64,000 nucleotides of DNA, taken from contig NZ_JACBAZ010000001.1 in NCBI RefSeq assembly GCF_013391475.1, positions 888,377 to 952,376 of the forward strand, given 5' to 3'. The notes beneath the pieces were generated by a model. It had not been told where the DNA came from, did no database searches, and saw only the letters and a list, made by a program, of their open reading frames with translations. Positions 27,641-64,000 of the stretch are shown one piece after another. Each line of letters begins with the position of its first letter. Position 1 is the stretch's first letter. Source of the stretch: Oceaniferula marina (GTDB taxonomy: Bacteria > Verrucomicrobiota > Verrucomicrobiia > Verrucomicrobiales > Akkermansiaceae). The position numbers and the translations under genes were made by a program.

Positions 27641-28438
27641 ATGAGTTCATCCCAAGAAACATTCAAAGACAGCCGCTATAAAGTCCCCAATCTCGAACGG
27701 GCCCTCGTGATGATGGAACACCTGCTGGACCACCCTCTAGGGAGAACCGCCTCCGAGCTCACCGAAGACCTCGGCTTTTCAAAAAACAGCGTCTTCCGTA
27801 TCACGATGACCTTGCTCAACCACCATTTTCTTATCCGCGATGAAAACAAACGCTTCCGCTTAAGCAAAAAACTTCTCCTCATGGGCTGCCGGAGTTTTGG
27901 TGATGCCCGCTTCATCGAACACGCGCTCGACATCATGCGGTCGTGCCGGGATGAAATCAAAGAGTCCGTCTTCATTGGCACCTTGGTCGAAAACGAAGGT
28001 GTGGTCATCGAGCAGGTTCTCGGCTCCCACCCGTTTAAATTCACCATCGATATCGGAGCCCGCATGCCCATCCATTGCGCAGCCCCGTGCAAGGCCATCC
28101 TCGCCTATATGCCGGCCGTCGAACGATCCTCCATCATCCAGCAGGCATCATTCAAACGCTATAACGAAAACACCATCACTTCAAAAAAAGCGTTCAACCA
28201 AGAACTCGAGTCCGTCAAGCAGTCAGGCTACGCCCTCGACCGGGCCGAACAAATCCACGGTGCCCACTGTGTGGCGGCACCCGTTTTCGACCAACACGGC
28301 TACCCCATCGCCGCTATCTGGACCACCGGCCCCTCCGATCGCATCCCCGCGGACTACTTCAGCAAGCTCGGAAAAACCATGCGGCACTTTGCCGACAAAA
28401 TCTCCCACCGAATGGGATTTGAGGCGCTTGAAACCTAG
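27641..28438 (+). CDS. IclR-family transcriptional regulator
   Basis: 265 residues with an N-terminal winged helix (about 17-75, including GRTASELTEDLGFSKNSVFRITMTLL) and a C-terminal IclR effector domain (about 90-255; GARMPIHCAAPCKAILAYMP and GAHCVAAPVFDQHGYPIAAIWTTGP are family-typical). IclR proteins usually control an adjacent catabolic operon in response to its substrate or intermediate, so it is inferred to control the six-kilobase cluster downstream on the same strand. A palindrome suited to an operator lies at 28538. Effector unknown. Confidence 0.9.
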   Translation: MSSSQETFKDSRYKVPNLERALVMMEHLLDHPLGRTASELTEDLGFSKNSVFRITMTLLNHHFLIRDENKRFRLSKKLLLMGCRSFGDARFIEHALDIMRSCRDEIKESVFIGTLVENEGVVIEQVLGSHPFKFTIDIGARMPIHCAAPCKAILAYMPAVERSSIIQQASFKRYNENTITSKKAFNQELESVKQSGYALDRAEQIHGAHCVAAPVFDQHGYPIAAIWTTGPSDRIPADYFSKLGKTMRHFADKISHRMGFEALET

Positions 28439-28607: not shown

Positions 28608-29297
28608 ATGGAAACAACCATTAGCAGAAGAGCCTTTGTCGCCAGCGCCCTGAGCGCTGCCGGTGGAGCCATCGTCACCGGATGTAAATCCAGTGAATCT
28701 ACAACCAGCAACCAGACCACAAGCATGACCAATTCCGACTTCTACAACAACGGAGAATTTGACGCAGACAAAGCCAAGCAAGCGTATTTCGATATGATGA
28801 AACGCTTAGGCTGCCCTACCCTCGAGCAATACAAAGGAGACCTTCTCTGGGCCATTGATTTCGGACTGGGCGATTTCGCCTCCGCCGGTATGGGCGGCGT
28901 CTTCTGGGCCAATGAAAATCACGAAAAAGGAGGATACCTTGGACATGAAATCTTCCTGCTTCCCGGCCAAATGATTGTTGAGCACGCTCATGTGGCTTGC
29001 AGTACCTGCCCACCAAAACGGGAGTCCTGGCTGGTCCGGCACGGATCCGTTTACTCATTCAGTGTTCAGGACGAGCCCAAAGGTTTCCCCGAAGGCTGCG
29101 TGATTCCTGAAAGCCAGCGTGACATCGCCACAGTAAACTCCGCCATCCTCGTCAAGGAAGGCGAAGTCGATCACCTCAACAAAGCCGAAGCCAAACACTT
29201 CATCATGGCTGGTCCTGAGGGAGCTGTCGTCACCGAGTTTGCCACCTTCCACGACAACGAAGGACTGCGTTTCACCAATCCGAACGTAAAGTTCTAA
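28608..29297 (+). CDS. Tat-exported lipoprotein of the D-lyxose isomerase cupin family
   Basis: 229 residues. The N-terminus has a twin-arginine motif (SRRAF, residues 6-10), a hydrophobic stretch and a lipobox ending VTGC with C26, predicting a folded protein exported by Tat and lipidated. The rest matches the YdaE-type D-lyxose ketol-isomerase family: LLPGQMIVEHAHV, then KRESWLVRHGSVYSF and AEAKHFIMAGPEGAVVTEF. All four metal ligands are present (H126, H128, E139, H197). Known relatives are cytosolic and isomerise D-lyxose/D-xylulose or mannose/fructose. An exported version is unusual. First gene of the catabolic cluster. Confidence 0.82.
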   Translation: METTISRRAFVASALSAAGGAIVTGCKSSESTTSNQTTSMTNSDFYNNGEFDADKAKQAYFDMMKRLGCPTLEQYKGDLLWAIDFGLGDFASAGMGGVFWANENHEKGGYLGHEIFLLPGQMIVEHAHVACSTCPPKRESWLVRHGSVYSFSVQDEPKGFPEGCVIPESQRDIATVNSAILVKEGEVDHLNKAEAKHFIMAGPEGAVVTEFATFHDNEGLRFTNPNVKF

Positions 29298-29748: not shown

Positions 29749-30744
29749 ATGAAAAAATTAATCAATGACCCAGCCAACCTGACAGCTGAACTGCTCGAGG
29801 GATACACCTTGGCCTACCCAAACAAAGTCAAACTCGTCAACGAAAAGATCGTTGTTCGGGCAAACGAAAAAGCAGAAGACAAAGTCGCGGTCATCAGCAT
29901 GGGAGGATCCGGACACGAACCTGCCGTTTCCGGTTTTGTAGGTGACGGCATGTTAGATGCCAGCGTCGTGGGAGATATCTTTGCGGCCCCGGGCGCCCCC
30001 AAAGTCTTTGAAGCATTGCAAATGTTCAAACGAGACGCCGGCATTTTACTCGTCGTTCTGAACCACGCCGGTGACGTCATGAGCGCCAATATGGCGATGC
30101 AACTGGCGGAGCGTGCCGGAATCAAAGTCAAAATGCTGCTGACCCACGAAGACATCAGTGCAGGCATCGACACCCCGGTCGAAGACAAACGTGGTTTGGC
30201 TGGATGCGTTCCCCTTTACAAAGTCGCCGGTGCCGCCGCAGACGAAGGCAAATCCCTCGATGAAGTCTACGAAATAGCCGAGCGCTTCAACCAGCAAATG
30301 GCCACGCTCGCCGTTGCTGTCACTAACTGCACCCACCCGCAAACCGGACAGGCTATCTCTAACCTCGCCGACGACGAAATGGAAATCGGCATGGGCCAAC
30401 ACGGTGAAGCCGGCGGAGGCATCTCCAAGATCCTTACTGCTGATGAAACGGCAGAACGTATGGTGCTACCATTGATCGAAGCGACAGGAGCAAGCAGCGG
30501 AGACACGGTGCAACTCCTCATCAACGGTGTTGGCGGCTCGACCCTCATGGAAATGAACATCGTCTACCGGAAAGCGCACCAGATCCTCACCGAAAAAGGA
30601 ATCACGCTTGTCCCAGGCATCGTCGACGAGCTCCTAACGGTTCAAGAGATGGGAGGGTTCCAAATGATCCTCTGTAAACTTGATCCAGATCACGTCACTT
30701 ACCTCGAGGCTCCAGCCAACGCACCCTACTGGACCACGCAATAA
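29749..30744 (+). CDS. dhaK: Dihydroxyacetone-kinase-type subunit DhaK
   Basis: 331-residue ketose-binding subunit. The substrate is normally held covalently by a histidine: H218 in GMGQHGEAGG is conserved, as is GSGHEP (53-58). The family loop usually read as NYTGD is NHAGD here (105-109), a change next to the substrate pocket. DhaL follows. DhaK/DhaL pairs phosphorylate dihydroxyacetone, and relatives act on erythrulose and other short ketoses, so the true substrate is open. No DhaM phosphotransfer subunit is present in the window. Confidence 0.93.
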   Translation: MKKLINDPANLTAELLEGYTLAYPNKVKLVNEKIVVRANEKAEDKVAVISMGGSGHEPAVSGFVGDGMLDASVVGDIFAAPGAPKVFEALQMFKRDAGILLVVLNHAGDVMSANMAMQLAERAGIKVKMLLTHEDISAGIDTPVEDKRGLAGCVPLYKVAGAAADEGKSLDEVYEIAERFNQQMATLAVAVTNCTHPQTGQAISNLADDEMEIGMGQHGEAGGGISKILTADETAERMVLPLIEATGASSGDTVQLLINGVGGSTLMEMNIVYRKAHQILTEKGITLVPGIVDELLTVQEMGGFQMILCKLDPDHVTYLEAPANAPYWTTQ

Positions 30745-30812: not shown

Positions 30813-31433
30813 ATGACCACTTCCCTTACACTCGATCATCTCAAAGCCATGTTCGCAGCGGGACTCACCGCCGTGACAGAAGCCAAGGAGGAACTCTCCT
30901 CGCTCGATGCCGCCACCGGAGACGGAGATCACGGCACCGCCATCTGCCAAGCCATGACGGCCATCTGCAACACGGCTGACAAAGGCACCGACCTCAAGCA
31001 ATCGCTCAATGACATGGGCTTTGCCGCCATGATGGAATCCTGTGGATCCACCAGCACCTTGATCGGAGCACTCCTTCTCGGGATGAGTGACGGAGTCGAT
31101 GGCAACGAACTGTCTCCGGCAGCCGTGGCAACCATGTTCAACTCCGGCCTCGCCAATCTCCGCCAGCAAACCAAGGCCGACATCGGTGACAAAACCATGA
31201 TGGATGCCCTGATCCCCGCCATCACAGCGATCGACACCCATCAGGGATCCGACCTCTCAACGATGTTCAATACGGCAGCCAAAGCAGCAGCCGATGGCCG
31301 GGACGCAACCAAAGATATGGTTGCCAAGTTCGGGCGCGCACGCAACTTGGGGGACCGCGTCATCGGCCACACCGACGCAGGAGCAACGTCTATCGCCTTG
31401 ATCTTCCAAGCGTTCGCTAACAGCCTCGACTAA
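30813..31433 (+). CDS. dhaL: Dihydroxyacetone-kinase-type subunit DhaL
   Basis: 206-residue nucleotide-binding subunit that donates phosphate to the ketose bound on DhaK. The Mg-ADP ligands D32, D37 and D39 lie in SLDAATGDGDHGT, and SCGSTSTLIGALL and RVIGHTDAGATS are family motifs. Either it relies on a DhaM encoded elsewhere, or it exchanges ADP for ATP directly. A strong hairpin precedes the gene. Same transcript as dhaK and lsrF. Confidence 0.93.
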   Translation: MTTSLTLDHLKAMFAAGLTAVTEAKEELSSLDAATGDGDHGTAICQAMTAICNTADKGTDLKQSLNDMGFAAMMESCGSTSTLIGALLLGMSDGVDGNELSPAAVATMFNSGLANLRQQTKADIGDKTMMDALIPAITAIDTHQGSDLSTMFNTAAKAAADGRDATKDMVAKFGRARNLGDRVIGHTDAGATSIALIFQAFANSLD

Positions 31434-31490: not shown

Positions 31491-32369
31491 ATGGCAGACT
31501 TAGATGACATCAGAGACGGAGACAACTTCGGCCTCAACACCCCGGCAGACACAAGCAGCTTCTACCTCAAAGGTATGAATAGTGCTTCATGGGGAATCAA
31601 AAACCGCATGTCCCGTATCTTCAACCGCGAATCAGGCCGCACCGTCATGCTGGCCTTCGACCACGGATTCCTCATGGGACCCACATCCGGACTTGAGCGC
31701 ATCGACCTCAACATCGCGCCTCTTGCCGAGGAAGCTGACTGCTTGATGGGATGCCGCGGCATGATCCGCACCTGTATTCCCGCAGAAAACACTAAACCCA
31801 TCTGCCTCCGGACAGACAGCGGAACCACCATCCTCACGGAAATGAACCACAACGTGCTCATCTCCGAAGAAGATGCCATCGGAATGAACGTTTCCGCCAT
31901 GGCCGCCATGCTCTCCATTGGTGATGCCGACACCGAAGCCACCACCATCGCCAACTTCAGCCGTCTGGTCGATATCGGCAACAAATACGCCATCCCCGTC
32001 ATGGGCGTCACTGCGGTCGGAAAAGACATGGCCCGCGATGCTCGCTACTTTGGACTCGCGTCTCGCGTCTGTGCCGAGAACGGTGCCAGCATCGTTAAAA
32101 CCTACTACACCGAAGGCTTTGAAAACGTCGTCGCGGCCTGCCCGGTCCCCGTCGTGATCGCCGGTGGCAAAAAACTCCCCGAACTCGAGGCCCTCGAACT
32201 TTGCTACAACGCAATCCAGTGTGGTGCGTCCGGAGTCGACATGGGACGTAACGTCTTCCAATCCGAAGCTCCCCTCGCCATGATGAAAGCGGTCAAAGCC
32301 GTCGTTCACAACAATGCGACACCAGCTGAAGCATTCGACCTCTTCAACACGCTGCAGAACGAAGCCTGA
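31491..32369 (+). CDS. lsrF: LsrF-type class I aldolase / thiolase
   Basis: 292 residues beginning MADLDDIRDG, strikingly like E. coli LsrF in both start and length. The Schiff-base lysine is K203 (GASIVKTYYTEGF), the same number as in E. coli LsrF. Also present are VMLAFDHGF, VIAGGKKLPE and SGVDMGRNVFQ. LsrF converts 3-hydroxy-5-phosphonooxypentane-2,4-dione plus CoA to acetyl-CoA and DHAP in autoinducer-2 breakdown. Here none of lsrK, lsrG, lsrR or lsrACDB is nearby; the partners are DhaKL, VOC and a cupin, so the substrate may be AI-2-derived or another ketose phosphate. Confidence 0.9.
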   Translation: MADLDDIRDGDNFGLNTPADTSSFYLKGMNSASWGIKNRMSRIFNRESGRTVMLAFDHGFLMGPTSGLERIDLNIAPLAEEADCLMGCRGMIRTCIPAENTKPICLRTDSGTTILTEMNHNVLISEEDAIGMNVSAMAAMLSIGDADTEATTIANFSRLVDIGNKYAIPVMGVTAVGKDMARDARYFGLASRVCAENGASIVKTYYTEGFENVVAACPVPVVIAGGKKLPELEALELCYNAIQCGASGVDMGRNVFQSEAPLAMMKAVKAVVHNNATPAEAFDLFNTLQNEA

Positions 32370-32576: not shown

Positions 32577-35500
32577 ATGAAACCCAGCATCATTGCCAGC
32601 GTCATCATTGGATTGAGCACCAGCCTCACGCTGCTGGCAAAACCCCGAGAACTCAACTACGGAACCAAGGAGTCTCTTGAGCTCGCCATCCAGGATTTGA
32701 TCAACACCCACGGGAAGGCCTATCCCAAAGGTCCAGCATTCTTAAAACGCCTGAAACAAATCAATGACGAAAAGGACCTGGCGAAACTTCGTAAAGAGGC
32801 TCTGATGGCCAACCCTGCCATCGATTTCGACCAATTACTCATCATCGAGCGCAGCGTCAACAAACGCTGGCTTCCCGCCAACTGGCAGTGCAACTCCAGC
32901 TTGCCTAAAACAGGTCACAACAACAACATTTCCACCCTTTCTCTCAAAGACGGGTCAACCAAACAAATCTTCAAGCCAGAAGGAGGCAAATTTCTCGGCG
33001 ACCTTGAGCTCCACTTCGACGCCGACAAGATCATGTTCTCCTCCATTGGAGAACACGGCGCGTGGGCGGTATTCGAAATGGATCTAAAAAAAGGAGCCCA
33101 ACCAGAACAAATCACCCCTCCGATTGCAGACATCGACTGCATGGACCCATGTTATCTTCCAGATGGCAGGATCATCTTTGCGTCAACTTCCGGGTTCCAA
33201 GGTGTCCCTTGCGTCGGTGGTAATGATATCGTCGCCAACCTCCACATCCTGGATCCGAAAACCAACAATATTCGCCGGATCTGCTTCGACCAGGAAAACA
33301 ACTGGAACCCGACAGTCCTACCCAATGGAAAGATTCTTTTCCAACGCTGGGAATATACGGACTCGGCCCACTACTTCAGCCGCCTGCTGATGCACATGAA
33401 CCCAGACGGAACCAACCAGAAGGAATACTACGGTAGCAACTCCTACTGGCCAAACTCGATGTTCTATGCCCGCCCGATCCCGGGAAGTTCCAATAAATTC
33501 ATCACCATCGTCACCGGCCACCACGGCGTCGCCCGTGCCGGGGAATTAATTTTATTCGACAACAACAAGGGCCGTCACGAAGCCGATGGCGTGATCCAGC
33601 GCATCCCGGGCCGAGGAAAAAAAGTCGAGCCGGTCATCAAGGACCGACTGGTCAATGGATCCTTCCCACTATTCCTCCACCCATACCCGCTCAGTGAAAA
33701 CCACTTCATCGTTTCCATGAGTCTGGACGGAAAACACTTCGGCATTTACCTCGTCGACACCTTCGACAACATCGTGCCGATCCAAGAAGCGAACAAAAAT
33801 GCACTCACCGAAGCCATCCCACTGAGGAAGACGGCTAAGCCACCGGTCAAGCCCGACCTCGTCCGCCTCGACCAAAAAGATGCTACCTTCTATATTCAGG
33901 ATATCTACGCTGGCCCCGGCCTCAAGGACGTGCCCCGTGGAACGGTTAAAACCCTCAAAGTTTACACCTACGAATACGCACCTCGTAAACAAGGTGGCCA
34001 CTACGCCATCGGCATGGAGGGGCCCTGGGATGTGCGCACCGTGCTCGGCACCGTGCCTGTCAACAAAGACGGATCCGTGATGTTCAAGGCTCCAGCCAAC
34101 ACCCCGATCGGCTTCCTGCCGCTTGACGCCGAAGGCAAGGCCTTGCAAATCATGCGCTCTTGGGCGACGGCCATGCCAGGCGAGGTTGTCTCCTGCGTCG
34201 GTTGTCACGAACCACAGAACATGTCACCGACCCCACGCCCAACGATGGCCTCCAAAATGGCACCGAAAAAACTCACCCCATGGCTTGGAACCAAACCACG
34301 TGGGTTCAGCTTCCACCGTGAAATCCAACCGGTTCTCGACGAATCCTGCGTTGGCTGCCACACCACGGAACTGGCGAAAAAAGATGGTCGCCCGGACTTC
34401 GAAGATATGAAAAAATCCTACTTCGAACTCCACCCCTACGTGCGCCGGAACGGACCCGAAGGTGACTACCACTTGCTCACCCCTCTTGAGTTCCACGCTG
34501 ACACCAGCGAACTGGTTCAAATCCTCCAGAAGGGACACTACAATGTCAAACTCGGCGAGGAATCATGGGAAAAACTCATCACCTGGATCGATATGAACGT
34601 GCCTGAGCACGGAACATGGACCGAAGCTCCAAAAGGCCGAGGATCCAAAACCGAGGAGTTCCTCGGACGCCGTGCCGAGACCCGGAAAAAATACGCCGGT
34701 CTCGAGGTCAATCCGGAAGTGGTGCAAAACCCATACACCGAACGCAAAAAGTTCATCGCCCCACCCGAGGTCACCGAAAACAAGACCAAGCCTGAAACAT
34801 CCAAGCATTGGCCCATCGCCCCAGACAAGGCCCGGGCAATGCAACAAGGAAAAACACCGCTTAGTGTCGATCTCGGCAACGGCTCGAAAATGACCTTTGT
34901 CTATATTCCTAAAGGCGAATTCATCAATGCCGAAGGGAAAAAAGAGCTCGTGAAAAAATCCTACTGGATGGCTAACACCGAGGTATCACTCGAACAATAC
35001 CGTGCATTCCAGAAAGAATACAAAAACGGAGTCTACGACATGCACTACAAGGACCAGGTGGACCGTGGATACTACATGAACGATCCCAAGTTCCCCGTCA
35101 TCCGGACCAACTGGGATGAAGCCAACGCCTTCTGTGACTGGCTAGGTAAAAAGCTTGGCAAACAAGTCAAACTCCCGAGCTCCAGCCAATGGGAGTGGGC
35201 ATGCCGCGCTGGTTCGGCCTCCCCGGTCAACTATGGTGAACTCGCCGATGACTTTGGTAAACACGCCAACCTCTCGGACGTCAACATGAAGAAAATGGCG
35301 GTCAAGGGAGTCAACCCCAAGCCGATCAAAAACCCACCACCTCATCTCGATTTCATCCCTAAGCGTGATGATGTCAATGACGGTGTTCTTCACCTCGCCA
35401 AAGTGGGCAGCTACCAGCCAAACATCTGGGGATTGCATGATATGCACGGTAACGTCGCCGAATGGACCAGCTCCGATTACGCCGATGACAAAAAAACCGT

Positions 35501-35615
35501 CCTCGGTGGATCATGGAGAGATCGTCCGCACCGTGCAGCTGCCGGATTCAGCCTCGGCTTCCGTCCATGGCAAAAGGTTTACAACGTAGGTTTCCGAGTT
35601 ATCATCGAAGAATAA
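32577..35615 (+). CDS. HZS-alpha-like c-type cytochrome with C-terminal formylglycine-enzyme-like domain
   Basis: 1012-residue secreted protein with signal peptide (MKPSIIASVIIGLSTSLTLLA), a TolB/WD40-like propeller at about 110-420 (LPDGRIIFASTS, LPNGKILFQRWEY) and a middle domain like that of hydrazine synthase alpha subunits. Two haem-c sites lie near residues 540 (CVGCHEPQ) and 590 (CVGCHTTE). The C-terminal domain, from about 765, is SUMF1/FGE-like (MTFVYIPKGEF, GLHDMHGNVAEW, GGSW, GFRV). The paired cysteines of true formylglycine enzymes are missing where the sequence reads WRDRPHRAA, so that domain is probably binding-only. Redox function unknown. The partner gene follows 15 bp downstream. 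Confidence 0.8.
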   Translation: MKPSIIASVIIGLSTSLTLLAKPRELNYGTKESLELAIQDLINTHGKAYPKGPAFLKRLKQINDEKDLAKLRKEALMANPAIDFDQLLIIERSVNKRWLPANWQCNSSLPKTGHNNNISTLSLKDGSTKQIFKPEGGKFLGDLELHFDADKIMFSSIGEHGAWAVFEMDLKKGAQPEQITPPIADIDCMDPCYLPDGRIIFASTSGFQGVPCVGGNDIVANLHILDPKTNNIRRICFDQENNWNPTVLPNGKILFQRWEYTDSAHYFSRLLMHMNPDGTNQKEYYGSNSYWPNSMFYARPIPGSSNKFITIVTGHHGVARAGELILFDNNKGRHEADGVIQRIPGRGKKVEPVIKDRLVNGSFPLFLHPYPLSENHFIVSMSLDGKHFGIYLVDTFDNIVPIQEANKNALTEAIPLRKTAKPPVKPDLVRLDQKDATFYIQDIYAGPGLKDVPRGTVKTLKVYTYEYAPRKQGGHYAIGMEGPWDVRTVLGTVPVNKDGSVMFKAPANTPIGFLPLDAEGKALQIMRSWATAMPGEVVSCVGCHEPQNMSPTPRPTMASKMAPKKLTPWLGTKPRGFSFHREIQPVLDESCVGCHTTELAKKDGRPDFEDMKKSYFELHPYVRRNGPEGDYHLLTPLEFHADTSELVQILQKGHYNVKLGEESWEKLITWIDMNVPEHGTWTEAPKGRGSKTEEFLGRRAETRKKYAGLEVNPEVVQNPYTERKKFIAPPEVTENKTKPETSKHWPIAPDKARAMQQGKTPLSVDLGNGSKMTFVYIPKGEFINAEGKKELVKKSYWMANTEVSLEQYRAFQKEYKNGVYDMHYKDQVDRGYYMNDPKFPVIRTNWDEANAFCDWLGKKLGKQVKLPSSSQWEWACRAGSASPVNYGELADDFGKHANLSDVNMKKMAVKGVNPKPIKNPPPHLDFIPKRDDVNDGVLHLAKVGSYQPNIWGLHDMHGNVAEWTSSDYADDKKTVLGGSWRDRPHRAAAGFSLGFRPWQKVYNVGFRVIIEE

Positions 35616-35630
35616 CGATAGGAAGAGACC

Positions 35631-37463
35631 ATGATGATCCAAACAACCTACGCACAAGCATCCTGCCGCTTTTTACTCCTTCTCAGCATCATGGCCATCC
35701 CGGCCATGATGTTGGGCTCGGCAACAGCAGCGCCTCCCAGATCTCCCGCGGATCTGGAGCTCTCGGAAGACAAAGAGACGCTTTACGTCGCCGAACACAC
35801 AGGAAAAAGTGTCGCGTGGGTTGAAACCAGAACCCGCAAACTCATGAAACGGGTGGCTCTTCCCGCTGAAGTCACCGGCATCACCCGTCATCAACAAAAA
35901 CTCTACGTCACCAGTAAGGACCAACTCGGTGCCGTCCATGAACTGAACGCCTCGTCGGGGGAAATTCTCCGCACCTTAAAAGTCGGACAAGGTGCCCGCG
36001 CCCCTATTGTCAACAGCCAACGCAACGAACTCTACGTCTGCAACTACTTCATGAACACCGTGTCGGTGATCGACATTGACACGTTCAAAGAAAGTAAACG
36101 CATTCCCGTGCTGAGAATGCCCAATGCCACTGGCATCACCAAAGACGGACAAACGCTTTATGTTGCCAACCTACTTCCTAACGGAGCAAGCAACGTCGAA
36201 CACACAGCAGCCAAAGTCAGCTTGATCGACTGCAAAACCCACAAGGTGATCAAGCACATCGAACTTGCAAACGGCAGTAACGCGCTCAGAGACATCACCC
36301 TCTCCCCCGACGGACATTTTGTTTTTGTCACCCACTCCCTGGCCCGCTTCTTGGTCCCCACCACCCAACTTGATCGGGGTTGGATCAACACCAATGCTTT
36401 CAGCATCATCAACACAAAGACCCAGGAACTCTATGCCACCATCCTGCTGGATGACATCAGTCAGGGCGCAGCCGGCCCATGGGGAATCGATATTTCATCC
36501 GACCAAAAACACATCTTCGTGGCCCACTCCGGCACGCACGAAATCAGTGTCATCGACATTCCCGGACTGATCAAAAAAATTGAGGAAACCGAGATCAGGG
36601 AAGACCTCGAATACAACCTCTCCATCATGTCGGATATCAGAAAGAGGATCAAAGTGCCTGGAAACGGCCCCAGAGCCATCCTCAGCCACGGCCCCGGCGT
36701 TTGGACCGCCCAGTATTTCAGTGACGACCTGACTTATGTGGATCTACGCAAGGGAACGGTCTCACCCAACATCCTGAATTTCCCGATGAACCCGTCGATC
36801 AAGATCTCCCAGGCACGCAAAGGGGAAATCATTTTCAACGACGCCACGTACTGTTTCCAACAATGGCTCTCCTGCAATGCCTGCCATACGGAAGAAGCCA
36901 GAATGGACGGACTCAACTGGGATTTGCTCAATGACGGCATCGGCAACCCGAAAAATGCCAAAAGCCTGCTCTTCTCCCACGTCACTCCGCCAGCGATGAT
37001 CACCGGCATTCGCCCCAAGGCGGAAGTGGCAGTTCGCGCCGGTGTCCGCCACATCCAGTTTGCGTCTGCCACCGAAGACCAATACGAAGCACTCGACGCC
37101 TACCTGAAATCACTCAAACCAGAACCCAGCCCTTATCTCGTCAATGGTGAGTTAAGCGACGCAGCCAAACGGGGAGAGAAAACTTTCAAATCACCAAGCA
37201 AGGGAGCCTGTATCGTTTGCCACAACGGCCCCTATTTCACCGACATGCAAAAGCATGATATGAAGAATGCCGGTCCAGCCGACCGAACCTCCGTTTGGGA
37301 CACGCCCACCTTGCGCGAAGTCTGGCGCACGGCCCCCTATCTGCACGATGGTCGCTCGGCTACCATTAAAGAGGTGCTGGTCAAAGAAAACCATGGCGGA
37401 GCTGCAGACAAGCTCGACAAAAAACAGATCGACGATCTCGTCGAATACGTGCTCAGCCTATAG
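35631..37463 (+). CDS. YVTN beta-propeller / di-haem cytochrome c peroxidase-like protein
   Basis: 610 residues: signal peptide (to about residue 30), YVTN-type seven-bladed propeller repeats (LYVAEHTGKSVAWVE, LYVCNYFMNTVSVID, LYVANLLPNG, IFVAHSGTHEISVID), then a MauG/CcpA-like domain with two haem sites, CNACH and CIVCH, and the distal TAPYLHDGR motif. It is likely periplasmic and paired with the preceding multihaem protein, with which it is co-transcribed. The family oxidises or reduces unknown partners; peroxidase activity is not assured. Start chosen at the tandem ATGATG at 35631. Confidence 0.82.
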   Translation: MMIQTTYAQASCRFLLLLSIMAIPAMMLGSATAAPPRSPADLELSEDKETLYVAEHTGKSVAWVETRTRKLMKRVALPAEVTGITRHQQKLYVTSKDQLGAVHELNASSGEILRTLKVGQGARAPIVNSQRNELYVCNYFMNTVSVIDIDTFKESKRIPVLRMPNATGITKDGQTLYVANLLPNGASNVEHTAAKVSLIDCKTHKVIKHIELANGSNALRDITLSPDGHFVFVTHSLARFLVPTTQLDRGWINTNAFSIINTKTQELYATILLDDISQGAAGPWGIDISSDQKHIFVAHSGTHEISVIDIPGLIKKIEETEIREDLEYNLSIMSDIRKRIKVPGNGPRAILSHGPGVWTAQYFSDDLTYVDLRKGTVSPNILNFPMNPSIKISQARKGEIIFNDATYCFQQWLSCNACHTEEARMDGLNWDLLNDGIGNPKNAKSLLFSHVTPPAMITGIRPKAEVAVRAGVRHIQFASATEDQYEALDAYLKSLKPEPSPYLVNGELSDAAKRGEKTFKSPSKGACIVCHNGPYFTDMQKHDMKNAGPADRTSVWDTPTLREVWRTAPYLHDGRSATIKEVLVKENHGGAADKLDKKQIDDLVEYVLSL

Positions 37464-58622: not shown

Positions 58623-59867
58623 TTAACGTTCCGCATGCTGGGCATGCACACGGAAGAAATAGGAAGCGTCATCAGCAAGGTCAAGGTCTTCCGTATTAAC
58701 CGGAGGTGTAGCTTGCAAGCCACTGGTCAATTGCACCCAATGCTTCATGTCCTGGCTTCCCCAAATCTCGTAGCTCACTTTCTCCTCGCTCTTCCAACTC
58801 AAGCGATGTTGGTCAGAAGCGATGGACTGAAAAGCAATCACACGCATCGATGAATTCGGATCCGACGGGTCCGTTCCACTATGGTATTCCTGGGCATCGG
58901 ATTGACCGTCCCCATCCCAGTCACTGTTCGCATGACAGATATCAAGTCCTCCGAAAAAGGAGCGCTCCCAAGAATCCGACATTCCATCCGCATCCAGATC
59001 AATCAACGACCGAGTCTCGAAACTTCCACTGGTATGGGTGTTGGTGTTCCCATCAGAATTGCTTGCAAAAATACGATAATAAAGAGGCTGTCCTGGAGTC
59101 AGTCCTCCCAAGAGGTAATCGAAATCTCCGACAGGCTGACTTCCAATGGCCGTGTTGTTTTCCCATGCGTTGAGATCATCCCCCATATCCTGGGAACCCC
59201 ACACCAGAATAATATCAACCTCTTCATCATTCCCGCTATAAAGGACACTCCCCTGGATTCGCGATGAGATTCCATCCACTCCTTCAGGTGCATACTGAGC
59301 AATGGCCAGAAGCCCCTGGTAGTCATAAACCAAACCATCTCCAGCCATCGCGGCCCGATTCATTGTTTCCCGTTGTCTGCGGTGTTGGTATTTCTCTTCC
59401 CGCCAAAGATCGATTCCCGCCGACATCACATACTCGGCCATGTCCGAACGCGTCACCGACTCCAATCTGGATTTGCCTGCCTGAATCAAGGCGAGCGCCT
59501 GGTCATAGGCATCCCCCGTCACGCCACTCAGGCAAGGGCTCGATGCTGGACGGTCAAAGGACACCTGCTCCCCGAGCCCTTTGATGTTTTTCACATTGAC
59601 TCCGGTCAAACTGATCAAGGTGTTGAGTTCACCATCTGTCAATGGAGAGCGACCACTTTCATTGCCTGGAAAATTACTGGTGTAACGTCCATAGTAAGGC
59701 GCATTCAAATCGACCCAAGTGGCCAGTCGCTCAAAATCAGAACCCGAGAGAGATACCCCGTGATGACCCGAGCGAATGGTCTCAATCAATTTGCTCTTAT
59801 GAGCCCCCCAGGATTTTGCCTGCTGAATGGCTGCAGGTCCGGCCCCGGCGGCCCTGTGTATCCCCAC
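58623..59867 (-). CDS. C-terminal fragment of a frameshifted HZS-alpha-like protein
   Basis: 414 residues in a frame shifted relative to the upstream part. It starts in register with QQAKSWGAHKSKLIETIRSGHHGVSL, the continuation of the haem domain of the paralogue at 32577 (KGHYNVKLGEESWEKL there). It carries FN3-like segments and a thrombospondin-3/EF-hand-like run (DLDADGMSDSWE, NSDWDGDGQSDAQE) typical of verrucomicrobial surface proteins, ending ADDASYFFRVHAQHAER. Here the SUMF1-like domain of the paralogue is absent. The frame joins the N-terminal part at the C run 59843-59846. Confidence 0.7.
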   Translation of the reverse strand: MGIHRAAGAGPAAIQQAKSWGAHKSKLIETIRSGHHGVSLSGSDFERLATWVDLNAPYYGRYTSNFPGNESGRSPLTDGELNTLISLTGVNVKNIKGLGEQVSFDRPASSPCLSGVTGDAYDQALALIQAGKSRLESVTRSDMAEYVMSAGIDLWREEKYQHRRQRETMNRAAMAGDGLVYDYQGLLAIAQYAPEGVDGISSRIQGSVLYSGNDEEVDIILVWGSQDMGDDLNAWENNTAIGSQPVGDFDYLLGGLTPGQPLYYRIFASNSDGNTNTHTSGSFETRSLIDLDADGMSDSWERSFFGGLDICHANSDWDGDGQSDAQEYHSGTDPSDPNSSMRVIAFQSIASDQHRLSWKSEEKVSYEIWGSQDMKHWVQLTSGLQATPPVNTEDLDLADDASYFFRVHAQHAER

Positions 59868-61687
59868 TGGGATCCAGCGAACGATGCCCGGTAAAGTGCC
59901 GCGTAGCTTGCATTGAACACAACACCCTTGTCACCGGCTAACAATGGAGAATCTCCACCGTAGTCGTGACACGAAACACAATGGGTATCCAGGACAGGTT
60001 GAACATCCGTAATGTAATTAAACACCTTGGCAGCTTCACTCTGCCACCCATTCATCGTATTTGGAGATCTGCGTAAGGCCAGCGGCATCTGGGACCCGGG
60101 ATAGTGTGGAGCCTGGTCCCGTGATTCGTGGCAGCCGATGCAACCCTGGCTTTCCCCGGGTTGAATGATCGTCCCCGAACGCATGGATTGCAGCATCATC
60201 TTATTTTCATCCAATAGCTGGAAAAATACAAAACGATGGGGTGGAACTTCGAAATGAGCCGAGCCGTCATCTTCAACCGGAACAGTCCCCAGAATCCGCT
60301 TGGTTTCAAAATTATCCCAGTTGACCGCAGGCCCTTGGAATCCCTGTCCGCCCCAACCTTTCAAGGTAAAAAAACGCTTCTCGGGCGACTCCACCACACG
60401 TAACCATTTGACATCACCTCGATTGATCCCCTGCATGTGCGTTCCTTCATACACATCGGCAACGTAAAAGCGTCCAGGGGTATCGTCATATTTCCGAGGA
60501 ACCGTAACATCATTGGGCTTCGCCCGGGGCACCAGAGGCATCGGGTCAAAACAACCAACGGAACCCGCTCCTTCATCGTGAACCAGCGTGGAGCCACCGG
60601 TTTCGGCATCCAGCAAGTAAATGGCCATATGACCTCCACCCACATCGCGGGAACAGAGGAAATACCGCCCTCCACTACCTGTCTCCGGGTCGAGAACCGG
60701 AAACGGATCTTCATGTTTCGGATTGACCGACTTAAAAGCGTCAAAGGCCGATGTCACCGCGCCAACACTTCCATTGTTATAAACCTTGTTAATCGCCGAG
60801 GCAGGCCAGATTTTCACAACTGCATCCTTGCCGTCCCGGGCCAAACGGTGGTCGATGATAGCAATCGCTCCCCATGGGCGGTCATGGCAGGACCCAAACA
60901 CACAAACCGTTTGCTGGGTGCCGGGGATCGCATGTCCATCAATAACTCCACCCGGACTGCTGGTATTATTGCCGTAGTAAATTGCATGCCCGGTTCCGTC
61001 CGGATCAGTCACCCAGAGCCCCTGGGCATCACCGAAGTTGCGGTCCACATACTCCCAACGGTCATACATGATGCGTCCGTCGGGCATGAGGCTGGGATGC
61101 CCTTCATACAAGGTGCTGTTTGCTATTTGCAAAATATTCGATCCATCGGCATTCATCCGGTAAAGGTTATACGATAGGTGCTTGTTGCACATCACATACT
61201 TCGGCTCCCGCCCAGAGCTGAACACGATGTCACCATCAGGCATATAAATCGGGTCCAAGTCATCGACATCCGGCATGAATGTCAGCTGACGCAGTCCACT
61301 ACCATCGCTGCGAATCTCCCAAATATTATATGACTCACTCGTGCTCTTCCTCCATGAAAACAGAATCCGCTCGCCATCAAAATGCACGCAGGGGTCGCGA
61401 ACCACGCCGTCGGCTCCGGCACTTAGAATCGTGCTGATGCCGCCGGTTGCCGGATCATAAACCTTGAGCGCACTGCTACCCCCTGCGTAACTGCCATTGT
61501 TGTATTCGTTAGCCGCCGAAGGAAACATCGTATGCGTGTTATGGTGGTCCGGAGCATACTGCTTGCGCACCACATAGAGAATCTTATGATTCTGGACCAT
61601 CGCCGGCAACTCCGCCACGGCAACTCCCATACCGCCTCCCAACATGAGGGCGGTTAGCATCGATTGATAGCGTTTACGTATGTTCAT
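59786..61687 (-). CDS. N-terminal part of the frameshifted HZS-alpha-like c-type cytochrome
   Basis: 633 residues with signal peptide (MNIRKRYQSMLTALMLGGGM), TolB-like propeller strands (MPDGDIVFSSG, MPDGRIMYDRWEYVD), haem sites CIGCHESRD and CVSCHDYGG, and family motifs shared with the 32577 protein (KRILGTVPVEDDGSAHFEVP). Its own frame ends in GPDLQPFSRQNPGGLIRAN, which has no counterpart in the paralogue, while the other frame resumes the homology. A single missing base at the G run (59843-59846 on plus C) explains it. The start overlaps the stop of the next gene by ATGA. It could be a sequencing error or a true pseudogene. Confidence 0.72.
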   Translation of the reverse strand: MNIRKRYQSMLTALMLGGGMGVAVAELPAMVQNHKILYVVRKQYAPDHHNTHTMFPSAANEYNNGSYAGGSSALKVYDPATGGISTILSAGADGVVRDPCVHFDGERILFSWRKSTSESYNIWEIRSDGSGLRQLTFMPDVDDLDPIYMPDGDIVFSSGREPKYVMCNKHLSYNLYRMNADGSNILQIANSTLYEGHPSLMPDGRIMYDRWEYVDRNFGDAQGLWVTDPDGTGHAIYYGNNTSSPGGVIDGHAIPGTQQTVCVFGSCHDRPWGAIAIIDHRLARDGKDAVVKIWPASAINKVYNNGSVGAVTSAFDAFKSVNPKHEDPFPVLDPETGSGGRYFLCSRDVGGGHMAIYLLDAETGGSTLVHDEGAGSVGCFDPMPLVPRAKPNDVTVPRKYDDTPGRFYVADVYEGTHMQGINRGDVKWLRVVESPEKRFFTLKGWGGQGFQGPAVNWDNFETKRILGTVPVEDDGSAHFEVPPHRFVFFQLLDENKMMLQSMRSGTIIQPGESQGCIGCHESRDQAPHYPGSQMPLALRRSPNTMNGWQSEAAKVFNYITDVQPVLDTHCVSCHDYGGDSPLLAGDKGVVFNASYAALYRASFAGSQWGYTGPPGPDLQPFSRQNPGGLIRAN

Positions 61688-64000
61688 AAGGAAAGCAGGT
61701 AGGTTACAAGTTCATCTATTTCTTCTTGAGACAGTCCGTCTGTATTCCCATGTCCATGAGTATCCATCACATCCCTGACCGTCGCCGCCCGACCATCGTA
61801 AAGGTAGGGAGCGGAACGCCAAAGCTCGACCAGCGACGGCACATCAAAGGCCTTCCCCGTTTCACTCCCTGTTCCGGTTCCGACGTTGTATTTTTTCTGG
61901 TCCGTGAAATTCGGACCACTGTGGCAGTTGATGCAACCCGAAGACTGGAAGTGCTGCTTACCACGCAACGCTTTCTCGCTCAACTCACCATCCACCAGAT
62001 GGGGACTGGGAGTTGGTTTCATCGACTCAAAATAGCGGTCGATCGCTTCAGCATAGGACTCATCCCGATTGACAAACTGGATGTAACGCAAGCCCGCCCG
62101 AATCCCCACCGCGGCATCGGCCCGAATACCTGTGACCATAGCCGGAGCGGTATTCCAGGAAGTCACATGACTTTTGCTGTTTTTAGCATTACCAAATCCG
62201 TCGTTAAGCAGATCCCAATTCAGGCCGTCACTGCGCCCGTCTGGATGGCAACTCGCGCAACTCTGCCATTTTTGTAAACACAAGGTGGCATCATTGTAAT
62301 ACATCTCCCCTTTTCGAATTTCATCCGCCGGCTTCTTCCAACCAATTGTGACCTCACGCCCGTGGCTTGTCGTTCCCGCCATTTCAGCCACAGCCAGCGA
62401 GTCACTGAAATATTCTGCAGCAAATACCTTGCCTGACATAATCGCTATACCGCGAGGACCGTTTCCTCTGAGAGCCACACGCCGACGAATCCCCGCCATC
62501 CAGGCAAGGTCCTTACTGGCATCGTCTGAACTTGCCGCCAATTTGGCCTCCATCGCCCCCCGGTCAATCACACTGAGCTCGTGTGTGCCAGCATGTGCGA
62601 CACAGAGCCATGCACCATCCGGGGAACAAGCCACGCCCCATGGGTTGGCGGCGCCCTCATCCATGTCGTCCAAGAGCACGGTATTCACTCGGGCTTCACT
62701 TGCAGGATCAATAACCGACAGGGCGTTCGTATTAATCCACCCCCGTGTCACTTGAGTCGTTGGAATATAGTAGCGGGACAAAACGTGTGTAACATAGAGC
62801 GAGCCCCCACCCGGAGCCATTGCCAAGCCCCGCAGGGAATGAGAACCCGTGGGCAAAGCAATCGAGTTCGAAACCGATCGCGTCGAGGTATCAATCACCG
62901 AAACATGCCCGGCCACCTGACTCGATGTCGCCGGCCCCACAGCTAACAAATTGGCAACAAACAATTTACCGCCATCCGGCGACAACACTGCGGCATGAGG
63001 TTCCCGTTCAACCGGGATGTTCGCCAACAGGGACCCAGCCGACGCATCCAGAACCGAGACCATGTCATTAAACCGATTACACACATACAACCGCGAGCCA
63101 TCCGGACTCAGGCAGGGAGACATCGGCGTATGCCCGACCGGCCATGAATATAAAACCTCATAACTTGCGGTATCGACCACATGAATCTTCCCTGCACTAC
63201 CACCGGCTGCCACATACAAGCGTGAACCTGAAACATTCAAACACATCCCATTCGGAGCATCCGGCAGTGCGATATTCCTCAACAAACGCTCCGTAACGGC
63301 ATCCACCACGACGACCTTCTTCGCCCCATTGGCGGCAACATAAAGTAATCCGGCCGAAGCATCGGCAAGGACATCTACGGGAGAAAGATGCTGACCATCA
63401 TCCGATAAAATCACTCCTTCAACGGGTTCGCTTGGCACCTCAACTCCGGGCACAGGAGAAAAACTCAAAGAAAAAATTTCATCAATTTCCTCATCTCCAT
63501 CACCGTTAACCCAGACTGAGATCACTGCCGTCGTCTGCCCGGCCGGGATTGTCACTTGCCCCGACACCGGAGTAAAATCCTGGGCGTCCGTTGTGATATG
63601 ACCAAGGTCATAATCCAAGGTAATATCCTCATCCAAGGCGTAAGAAAGCGTCAATAAAAATTGAATTTCAGTCAGCCCTGTCGCCCCTTCGATTTCCTGG
63701 CCACCCGAAATCGTGACTTGTGGAAGGCGGGGCGTAAATGACTGCACATCACTCCAATCGCTCCCCTTGGCATTTACGGCATGGTAACGGAAATAATAAG
63801 TGCTCCCAACCGCCAATGCGCTCACTCCCTCTTCCAGAACGGACTCACCCAGCACCCCGAGATCTCGTTGATCATCCCAATCCTGCAACGCTTCACCGGC
63901 GTCTTCATCCCCCCAACACAACCAGACCCGAGTTGAATGGCCACCATCGTAAACCAACTCACCAGGCAAATTCGCCGTTGAACTTTTTATATCCGTCGCC
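61684..64000 (-). CDS. YVTN propeller / di-haem peroxidase-like protein, cut by the right edge
   Basis: The frame stays open to the right edge of the window (ATDIKSSTANLPGELVYDGG before the first start-like codon), so the N-terminus lies outside and 63969 is not the true start. In order: an FN3-like segment (VWLCWGDEDAG), a Calx-beta domain (about 85-190 of the visible part), a YVTN propeller (LYVAANGAKKVVVVD, LYVCNRFNDMVSVLD) and a di-haem peroxidase-like domain with CASCH and CINCH and SAPYLYDGR. Paralogue of the gene at 35631, but with added N-terminal adhesion-type domains. It overlaps the next gene by four bases, so they are translationally coupled. Confidence 0.8.
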   Translation of the reverse strand, partial: ATDIKSSTANLPGELVYDGGHSTRVWLCWGDEDAGEALQDWDDQRDLGVLGESVLEEGVSALAVGSTYYFRYHAVNAKGSDWSDVQSFTPRLPQVTISGGQEIEGATGLTEIQFLLTLSYALDEDITLDYDLGHITTDAQDFTPVSGQVTIPAGQTTAVISVWVNGDGDEEIDEIFSLSFSPVPGVEVPSEPVEGVILSDDGQHLSPVDVLADASAGLLYVAANGAKKVVVVDAVTERLLRNIALPDAPNGMCLNVSGSRLYVAAGGSAGKIHVVDTASYEVLYSWPVGHTPMSPCLSPDGSRLYVCNRFNDMVSVLDASAGSLLANIPVEREPHAAVLSPDGGKLFVANLLAVGPATSSQVAGHVSVIDTSTRSVSNSIALPTGSHSLRGLAMAPGGGSLYVTHVLSRYYIPTTQVTRGWINTNALSVIDPASEARVNTVLLDDMDEGAANPWGVACSPDGAWLCVAHAGTHELSVIDRGAMEAKLAASSDDASKDLAWMAGIRRRVALRGNGPRGIAIMSGKVFAAEYFSDSLAVAEMAGTTSHGREVTIGWKKPADEIRKGEMYYNDATLCLQKWQSCASCHPDGRSDGLNWDLLNDGFGNAKNSKSHVTSWNTAPAMVTGIRADAAVGIRAGLRYIQFVNRDESYAEAIDRYFESMKPTPSPHLVDGELSEKALRGKQHFQSSGCINCHSGPNFTDQKKYNVGTGTGSETGKAFDVPSLVELWRSAPYLYDGRAATVRDVMDTHGHGNTDGLSQEEIDELVTYLLSL

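Follow-up and report, generated by a model that had tools for sequence, protein, structure and literature searches.

D-lyxose isomerases are known only as cytoplasmic sugar isomerases, and the closest solved structures to the protein described here are those of Thermofilum (TsLI; 7nzo, 7nzp and 7nzq) and B. subtilis (2y0o). The active-site residues of TsLI are taken here from PMC8378251, in which K86 and E156 are reported to be essential for isomerisation and changing the D163-equivalent residue of the E. coli enzyme is reported to have abolished activity. Z5688 of E. coli O157 (3kmh, 3mpb) and the L-ribose isomerases (3ww1, 4q0p) share the same wider fold (Z 15.4 to 17.7) but are more distant and longer, with extra elements. 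Two further described systems resemble the neighbouring genes. Hydrazine synthase (HZS; 5c2v) has relatives encoded outside anammox bacteria, which have been noted with substrates unknown, and alternative substrates have been suggested for the wider family (PMC10732223). The Lsr pathway (LsrK, LsrG and LsrF) has a kinase and an LsrF-type thiolase/aldolase as its last steps.

Here, we analyse a gene cluster within 64,000 nucleotides of the Oceaniferula marina genome (the window) that encodes a cupin with a predicted export signal (Table 1). The cupin shares with TsLI and 2y0o the fold, the four metal ligands and the equivalents of K86 and E156, but it is only about 27% identical to them, carries an N-terminal signal and a linker, and belongs to a different operon and a separate clade. 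We lean towards the reading that it would be an extracytoplasmic metal-dependent isomerase and would carry out the exported step in a conserved, hitherto undescribed catabolic module. Its clade represents a large exported branch of the family, and it would be unusual for a sugar to be isomerised first and taken up afterwards.

Table 1. Features of the cupin cluster, in window coordinates
Feature	Position	Strand	Basis or residues
IclR-family regulator, directly upstream of cupin	27641..28438	+	
Cupin of D-lyxose-isomerase fold, predicted exported, 229 aa	28608..29297	+	homology, ligand alignment, fold comparison
Predicted Tat signal peptide and lipobox, residues 1-26 (SRRAF ... VTGC)	28608..28685	+	pattern test, conservation
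Linker from lipobox to folded domain, residues 27-41	28686..28730	+	low pLDDT; no homology to canonical enzymes
Cupin domain, residues 42-229	28731..29294	+	H126, H128, E139, H197, K137, E210; H113 is the K62 equivalent
Small VOC (glyoxalase/epimerase) metalloprotein, 104 aa	29407..29721	+	H6, E44, H58, E99 invariant
DhaK, dihydroxyacetone-kinase-type subunit	29749..30744	+	Pfam Dak1 E 1.2e-101
DhaL, ATP-binding subunit	30813..31433	+	Pfam Dak2 E 3.7e-38
LsrF-type thiolase/aldolase	31491..32369	+	PRK08227, PDB 3gkf; K203 conserved
HZS-alpha-like protein, exported, two CxxCH, C-terminal FGE-like domain	32577..35615	+	
HZS beta-gamma-like fusion, exported, propeller and di-haem domain, two CxxCH	35631..37463	+	

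Results

Neither Pfam nor NCBIfam gave a family for the cupin, so its relationships were established by phmmer, by a profile and by comparison of folds. Against PDB chains, phmmer matched 7nzo (E 1.7e-13) and 2y0o (4.8e-12), and a 21-sequence profile matched the same two entries at 5.6e-28 and 8e-26, respectively. The AlphaFold model (mean pLDDT 89) aligned with 7nzo at Z 23.4 and rmsd 2.5 over 176 residues; L-ribose isomerases ranked next (Z about 17), with the E. coli sugar isomerase after them (about 15.5). The metal ligands H75, H77, E88 and H143 that bind Mn in TsLI align with H126, H128, E139 and H197, all four invariant in 21 relatives; in an alignment of 56 relatives, H128 does not vary and each of the other three is at least 90% conserved. 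An earlier note, made from the sequence alone, had described the protein as a D-lyxose-isomerase-family cupin that keeps all four ligands, and both parts of that description stand.

The equivalents of K86 and E156, namely K137 and E210, are invariant in 56 sequences. Two of the eight substrate contacts of the known isomerase are altered in the cupin: K62 aligns with H113, and D163 aligns with N217, with D216 adjacent, and is not conserved across the clade. The alignment shows an intact catalytic core and an altered sugar-contact surface. The sugar-isomerase reading of the earlier note thus retains its fold and metal site and acquires a caveat as to the sugar. Because K62 and D163 are changed, the substrate is probably neither D-lyxose nor D-mannose. 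An enzyme that does isomerise one of these two sugars and is exported by chance, making xylulose or fructose for uptake, would agree with the closest solved structures and the retained core; the changed contacts, the low identity, the separateness of the canonical clade and a downstream kinase that is DhaKL, not xylulokinase or fructokinase, make this quite unlikely.

Cupins are functionally diverse. The protein might accordingly be exported and act as a lyase, a dioxygenase or a sugar-binding subunit of a cytochrome complex, a reading that draws on this diversity, on the changed substrate contacts and on the exported redox partners encoded alongside. Against it, the two residues essential for isomerisation are invariant, and every one of the closest folds is a sugar isomerase (Z 23 to 15), with the next cupins at Z 12. 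We consider a non-isomerase function unlikely, if less so than the D-lyxose/D-mannose reading, and regard isomerase activity, as judged from the residues and the model, as reasonably probable.

The N-terminus of the cupin, METTISRRAFVASALSAAGGAIVTGCKSS, contains a twin-arginine S-R-R-A-F motif, followed by a hydrophobic stretch (VASALSAAGGAIV) and a V-T-G-C lipobox at residues 23-26, in which Cys26 is the predicted lipidated residue. This arrangement, which the earlier note had pointed out, is present in the open reading frame and is unique in its surroundings: the cupin is the sole match to the Tat-plus-lipobox pattern among 68 window ORFs of at least 150 aa, and the pattern arose in 63 of 200,000 shuffles of the cupin's own N-terminus. 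The genome encodes TatC (E 2.5e-65), and residues 1-21 have pLDDT below 50 in the AlphaFold model. The signal call is made from pattern together with conservation, and on these grounds the cupin is very probably exported from the cytoplasm and probably lipid-anchored. The nearest relative, L091 (same genus, 72% identity), has no Cys at the lipobox position; hence, lipidation is not conserved even inside the genus.

The ATG at 28608 is taken as the start codon. Were translation to begin instead at Met40 (28725), the Tat/lipobox region would never be made, and the product would be a cytosolic cupin like any other. Met40 immediately precedes the folded domain, homologues in L004 and L011 begin at the equivalent point, and a clear Shine-Dalgarno sequence is absent at 28608; none is evident at either ATG. 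However, SRRAFVA is preserved between the same-genus relatives (L019/L091) despite third-position codon changes (TAGCAGAAGAGCCTTTGTCGCC versus TAGCAGAAGAGCTTTTGTAGCG), which favours translation of residues 1-26. Over these residues, 18 codons are changed in L091, 5 of them synonymously (dN 0.46, dS 1.02). Signals also lie at the same place in nearly all members of the clade, through several unrelated routes. A start at Met40 is therefore very unlikely, and the downstream start that the earlier note had named as a possible refutation is not borne out.

Relatives were found at 17 loci in a scan of genome contigs, and a profile search of 387 same-phylum genomes matched 46 genomes in two score groups: hits of the first, above 200 bits, carry an N-terminal extension, and those of the second, at about 70-104 bits, are of canonical length. 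In the tree, 42 rows of the first group are split from 14 canonical rows at 100% SH-aLRT; L076, a divergent short protein, is placed within the first group, where its branch is long. The clade occurs in Verrucomicrobiota, Planctomycetota, Bacteroidota and Armatimonadota. A signal sequence was judged present in 37 of 41 clade members and in none of 15 canonical proteins, the labels being assigned by eye on start codons of our own choice and mostly in metagenome bins. A simple hydrophobicity rule was discarded as a classifier, since it missed L068 and called four canonical cytosolic proteins 'Sec' on helices of the folded domain.

By these labels, the 41 N-termini comprise 5 Tat with a lipobox, 5 Tat without, 21 Sec with a lipobox, 6 Sec without and 4 with no signal. 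Sixteen changes among all labels are needed on the tree, which indicates that the export route has switched repeatedly while export was retained. As labelled, export is conserved across the clade and the lipobox is not; members use either Tat or Sec, and each route occurs with and without a lipid anchor. Several distant members (L059, L068, L073, L095 and Aureibacter pAT4 of the Bacteroidota) are likewise labelled as Tat lipoproteins, and among plasmid copies in Bacteroidota, Parabacteroides has a Sec lipoprotein, Aureibacter pAT4 has Tat with the lipobox ATAC, and pAT2 has Tat without a lipobox. The earlier note had supposed an exported exception among cytosolic proteins and had asked whether homologues lack the Tat/lipobox region. 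The canonical members do lack a signal, but the exported protein is far from isolated; most of its relatives bear signals, and it is the Tat and lipoprotein details that vary.

Export can nevertheless be lost. L004 (Phycisphaerae), with a full operon, has no signal and starts at a GTG that is served by a good Shine-Dalgarno sequence, and the L011 members likewise begin just before the fold; export is thus not essential to the reaction everywhere. Tandem cupin duplicates were seen in L011 (7441-8651), where the signal is absent from both copies, and in L074 (9155-10623), where one copy is exported and the other is not. Clade members in PLSDB records are annotated as 'hypothetical protein', and the literature searched contained no report of exported D-lyxose isomerases, of an exported branch or of an Akkermansia D-lyxose isomerase. 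The canonical family is known; the exported branch, as delimited here by sequence, appears to be new.

VOC, DhaK, DhaL and LsrF genes lie near the cupin in 22 other loci and also in Parabacteroides, and cupin-VOC-DhaK-DhaL-LsrF is the usual order among loci that have these genes; some clade members lack DhaKL-LsrF alongside. Among the 30 genomes that encode the long cupin, 29 also have LsrF and 28 have VOC; among the 357 that do not, the numbers are 30 and 11 (Fisher p 4e-26 for LsrF and 2e-31 for VOC), p values that serve only as a guide because the genomes of this phylum sample are related. From this linkage, the cupin, DhaKL and LsrF are likely to work as one module. The VOC model (pLDDT 96) most resembles glyoxalase I and methylmalonyl-CoA epimerase (Z 8.6 to 10.2), and its four conserved residues are of metal type. 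The LsrF-type protein scores 430.7 bits against PRK08227 of NCBIfam (cut-off 297) and matches PDB 3gkf at E 8.6e-103. The literature searched yielded nothing on LsrF with dihydroxyacetone kinase. The earlier note had placed the cupin's export upstream of intracellular kinases, which is in keeping with its predicted export and with the DhaK and DhaL genes directly downstream.

An IclR regulator also lies beside the cluster in L008, L011, L059, L091, Parabacteroides and Aureibacter, and in L018 (1893-2858) the frame upstream of the cupin encodes KETFKAGRYKAPNLERAL, which resembles the N-terminus of this regulator. A chorismatase-like/RidA-fold protein is encoded immediately before the cupin in Bacteroidota L107 (12653-13744) and L108 (8616-9794). 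The window cluster contains no transporter gene; Parabacteroides has a single run of IclR, HZS-like proteins, cupin, CcsA, DhaK, DhaL, LsrF and an MFS transporter. In L059, the gene after LsrF encodes a Ptb/Pta-acetate kinase fusion, and a butyrate kinase gene (buk) lies near the cluster in Aureibacter; a general link of Ptb/acetate kinase to LsrF was set aside, as among the loci searched it occurs only in L059, apart from the Aureibacter buk.

The HZS-alpha-like gene adjoins the cupin cluster in many loci. The beta-gamma-like fusion matches 5c2v_B (E 1.5e-29) and 5c2v_C (E 5.7e-23). Both neighbours resemble hydrazine synthase in their alpha-like and fused beta-gamma-like make-up with CxxCH motifs, but they are of low identity, the alpha-like protein has an FGE-like domain, and they are linked to sugar-type genes. 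The only cysteines in this domain are 853 and 876, and its C-terminal end, where the catalytic Cys pair of a true FGE lies, has none nearby; it is therefore probably not a formylglycine-generating enzyme. The Parabacteroides HZS-alpha-like protein bears an NPCBM domain, of carbohydrate-binding type. A second pair of HZS-alpha-like and beta-gamma-like genes lies on the minus strand of the window (58626-63969), and the HZS_alpha domain occurs in 11 proteins genome-wide.

Discussion

Sequence, structure prediction and gene order show the fold and metal site of the cupin, its conserved export signals and its linkage to VOC, DhaK, DhaL and LsrF, and from these we infer all of the chemistry. Outside the cytoplasm, the cupin would interconvert an aldose/ketose or alpha-hydroxy-ketone pair, and the exported HZS-like cytochromes encoded nearby may release or oxidise the sugar that it uses. 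After import, DhaKL would phosphorylate the product on a dihydroxyacetone-like end, the VOC protein would rearrange it, and LsrF would cleave the rearranged product into dihydroxyacetone phosphate (DHAP) and an acyl-CoA. We give even weight to LsrF acting here as a thiolase. An acyl-CoA product is hinted at by the Ptb-acetate kinase fusion of L059 and the buk of Aureibacter, both of which may be coincidental neighbours, and the NPCBM domain on the Parabacteroides HZS-alpha-like partner is consistent with a sugar substrate.

More tentatively, and with less confidence than we place in the exported isomerase itself, a surface HZS-like cytochrome complex and the exported isomerase may act together in at least four phyla, a glycan-derived or unusual sugar being oxidised, isomerised and imported before DhaKL and LsrF act on it. 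If true, such a coupled system would provide a function for HZS-like proteins outside anammox bacteria. The cluster is a lead on the role of these proteins in ordinary heterotrophs, such as the gut bacterium Parabacteroides distasonis, and its conserved neighbours constitute a testable pathway.

The Lsr pathway offers another precedent for the last steps. The module might instead resemble the Lsr route and degrade AI-2-type or other 1-deoxy-diketo pentoses, with DhaKL substituting for LsrK, the cupin and the VOC protein for LsrG, and LsrF yielding DHAP and acetyl-CoA. The LsrF-type protein exceeds the NCBIfam cut-off and has K203, acyl-kinase genes lie nearby in L059 and Aureibacter, and a second LsrF-DhaKL operon (L100) encodes a small ABM protein whose sole NCBIfam match is LsrG, at a score far below the cut-off. 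However, neither LsrK nor LsrG is encoded in the operon, the HZS-like partners would go unexplained, and LuxS is absent from the genome, which weakens an AI-2 role. LsrF-type proteins also occur in the same genome beside UPF0261/PEP-hydrolase genes, so an AI-2 role is not a fixed property of the family. We regard the Lsr-like route as unlikely, and favour the module with an exported isomerase.

The genome has a second LsrF gene (L097, 9162-10037) about 91 kb upstream of that in the window, encoding a 97% identical protein and adjoining UPF0261, PEP-hydrolase-like and ribulose-phosphate-epimerase genes. The similarity between the two copies ends at the gene boundaries, and the operon of the same-genus L091 lacks LsrF, which together suggest a recent LsrF copy or conversion.
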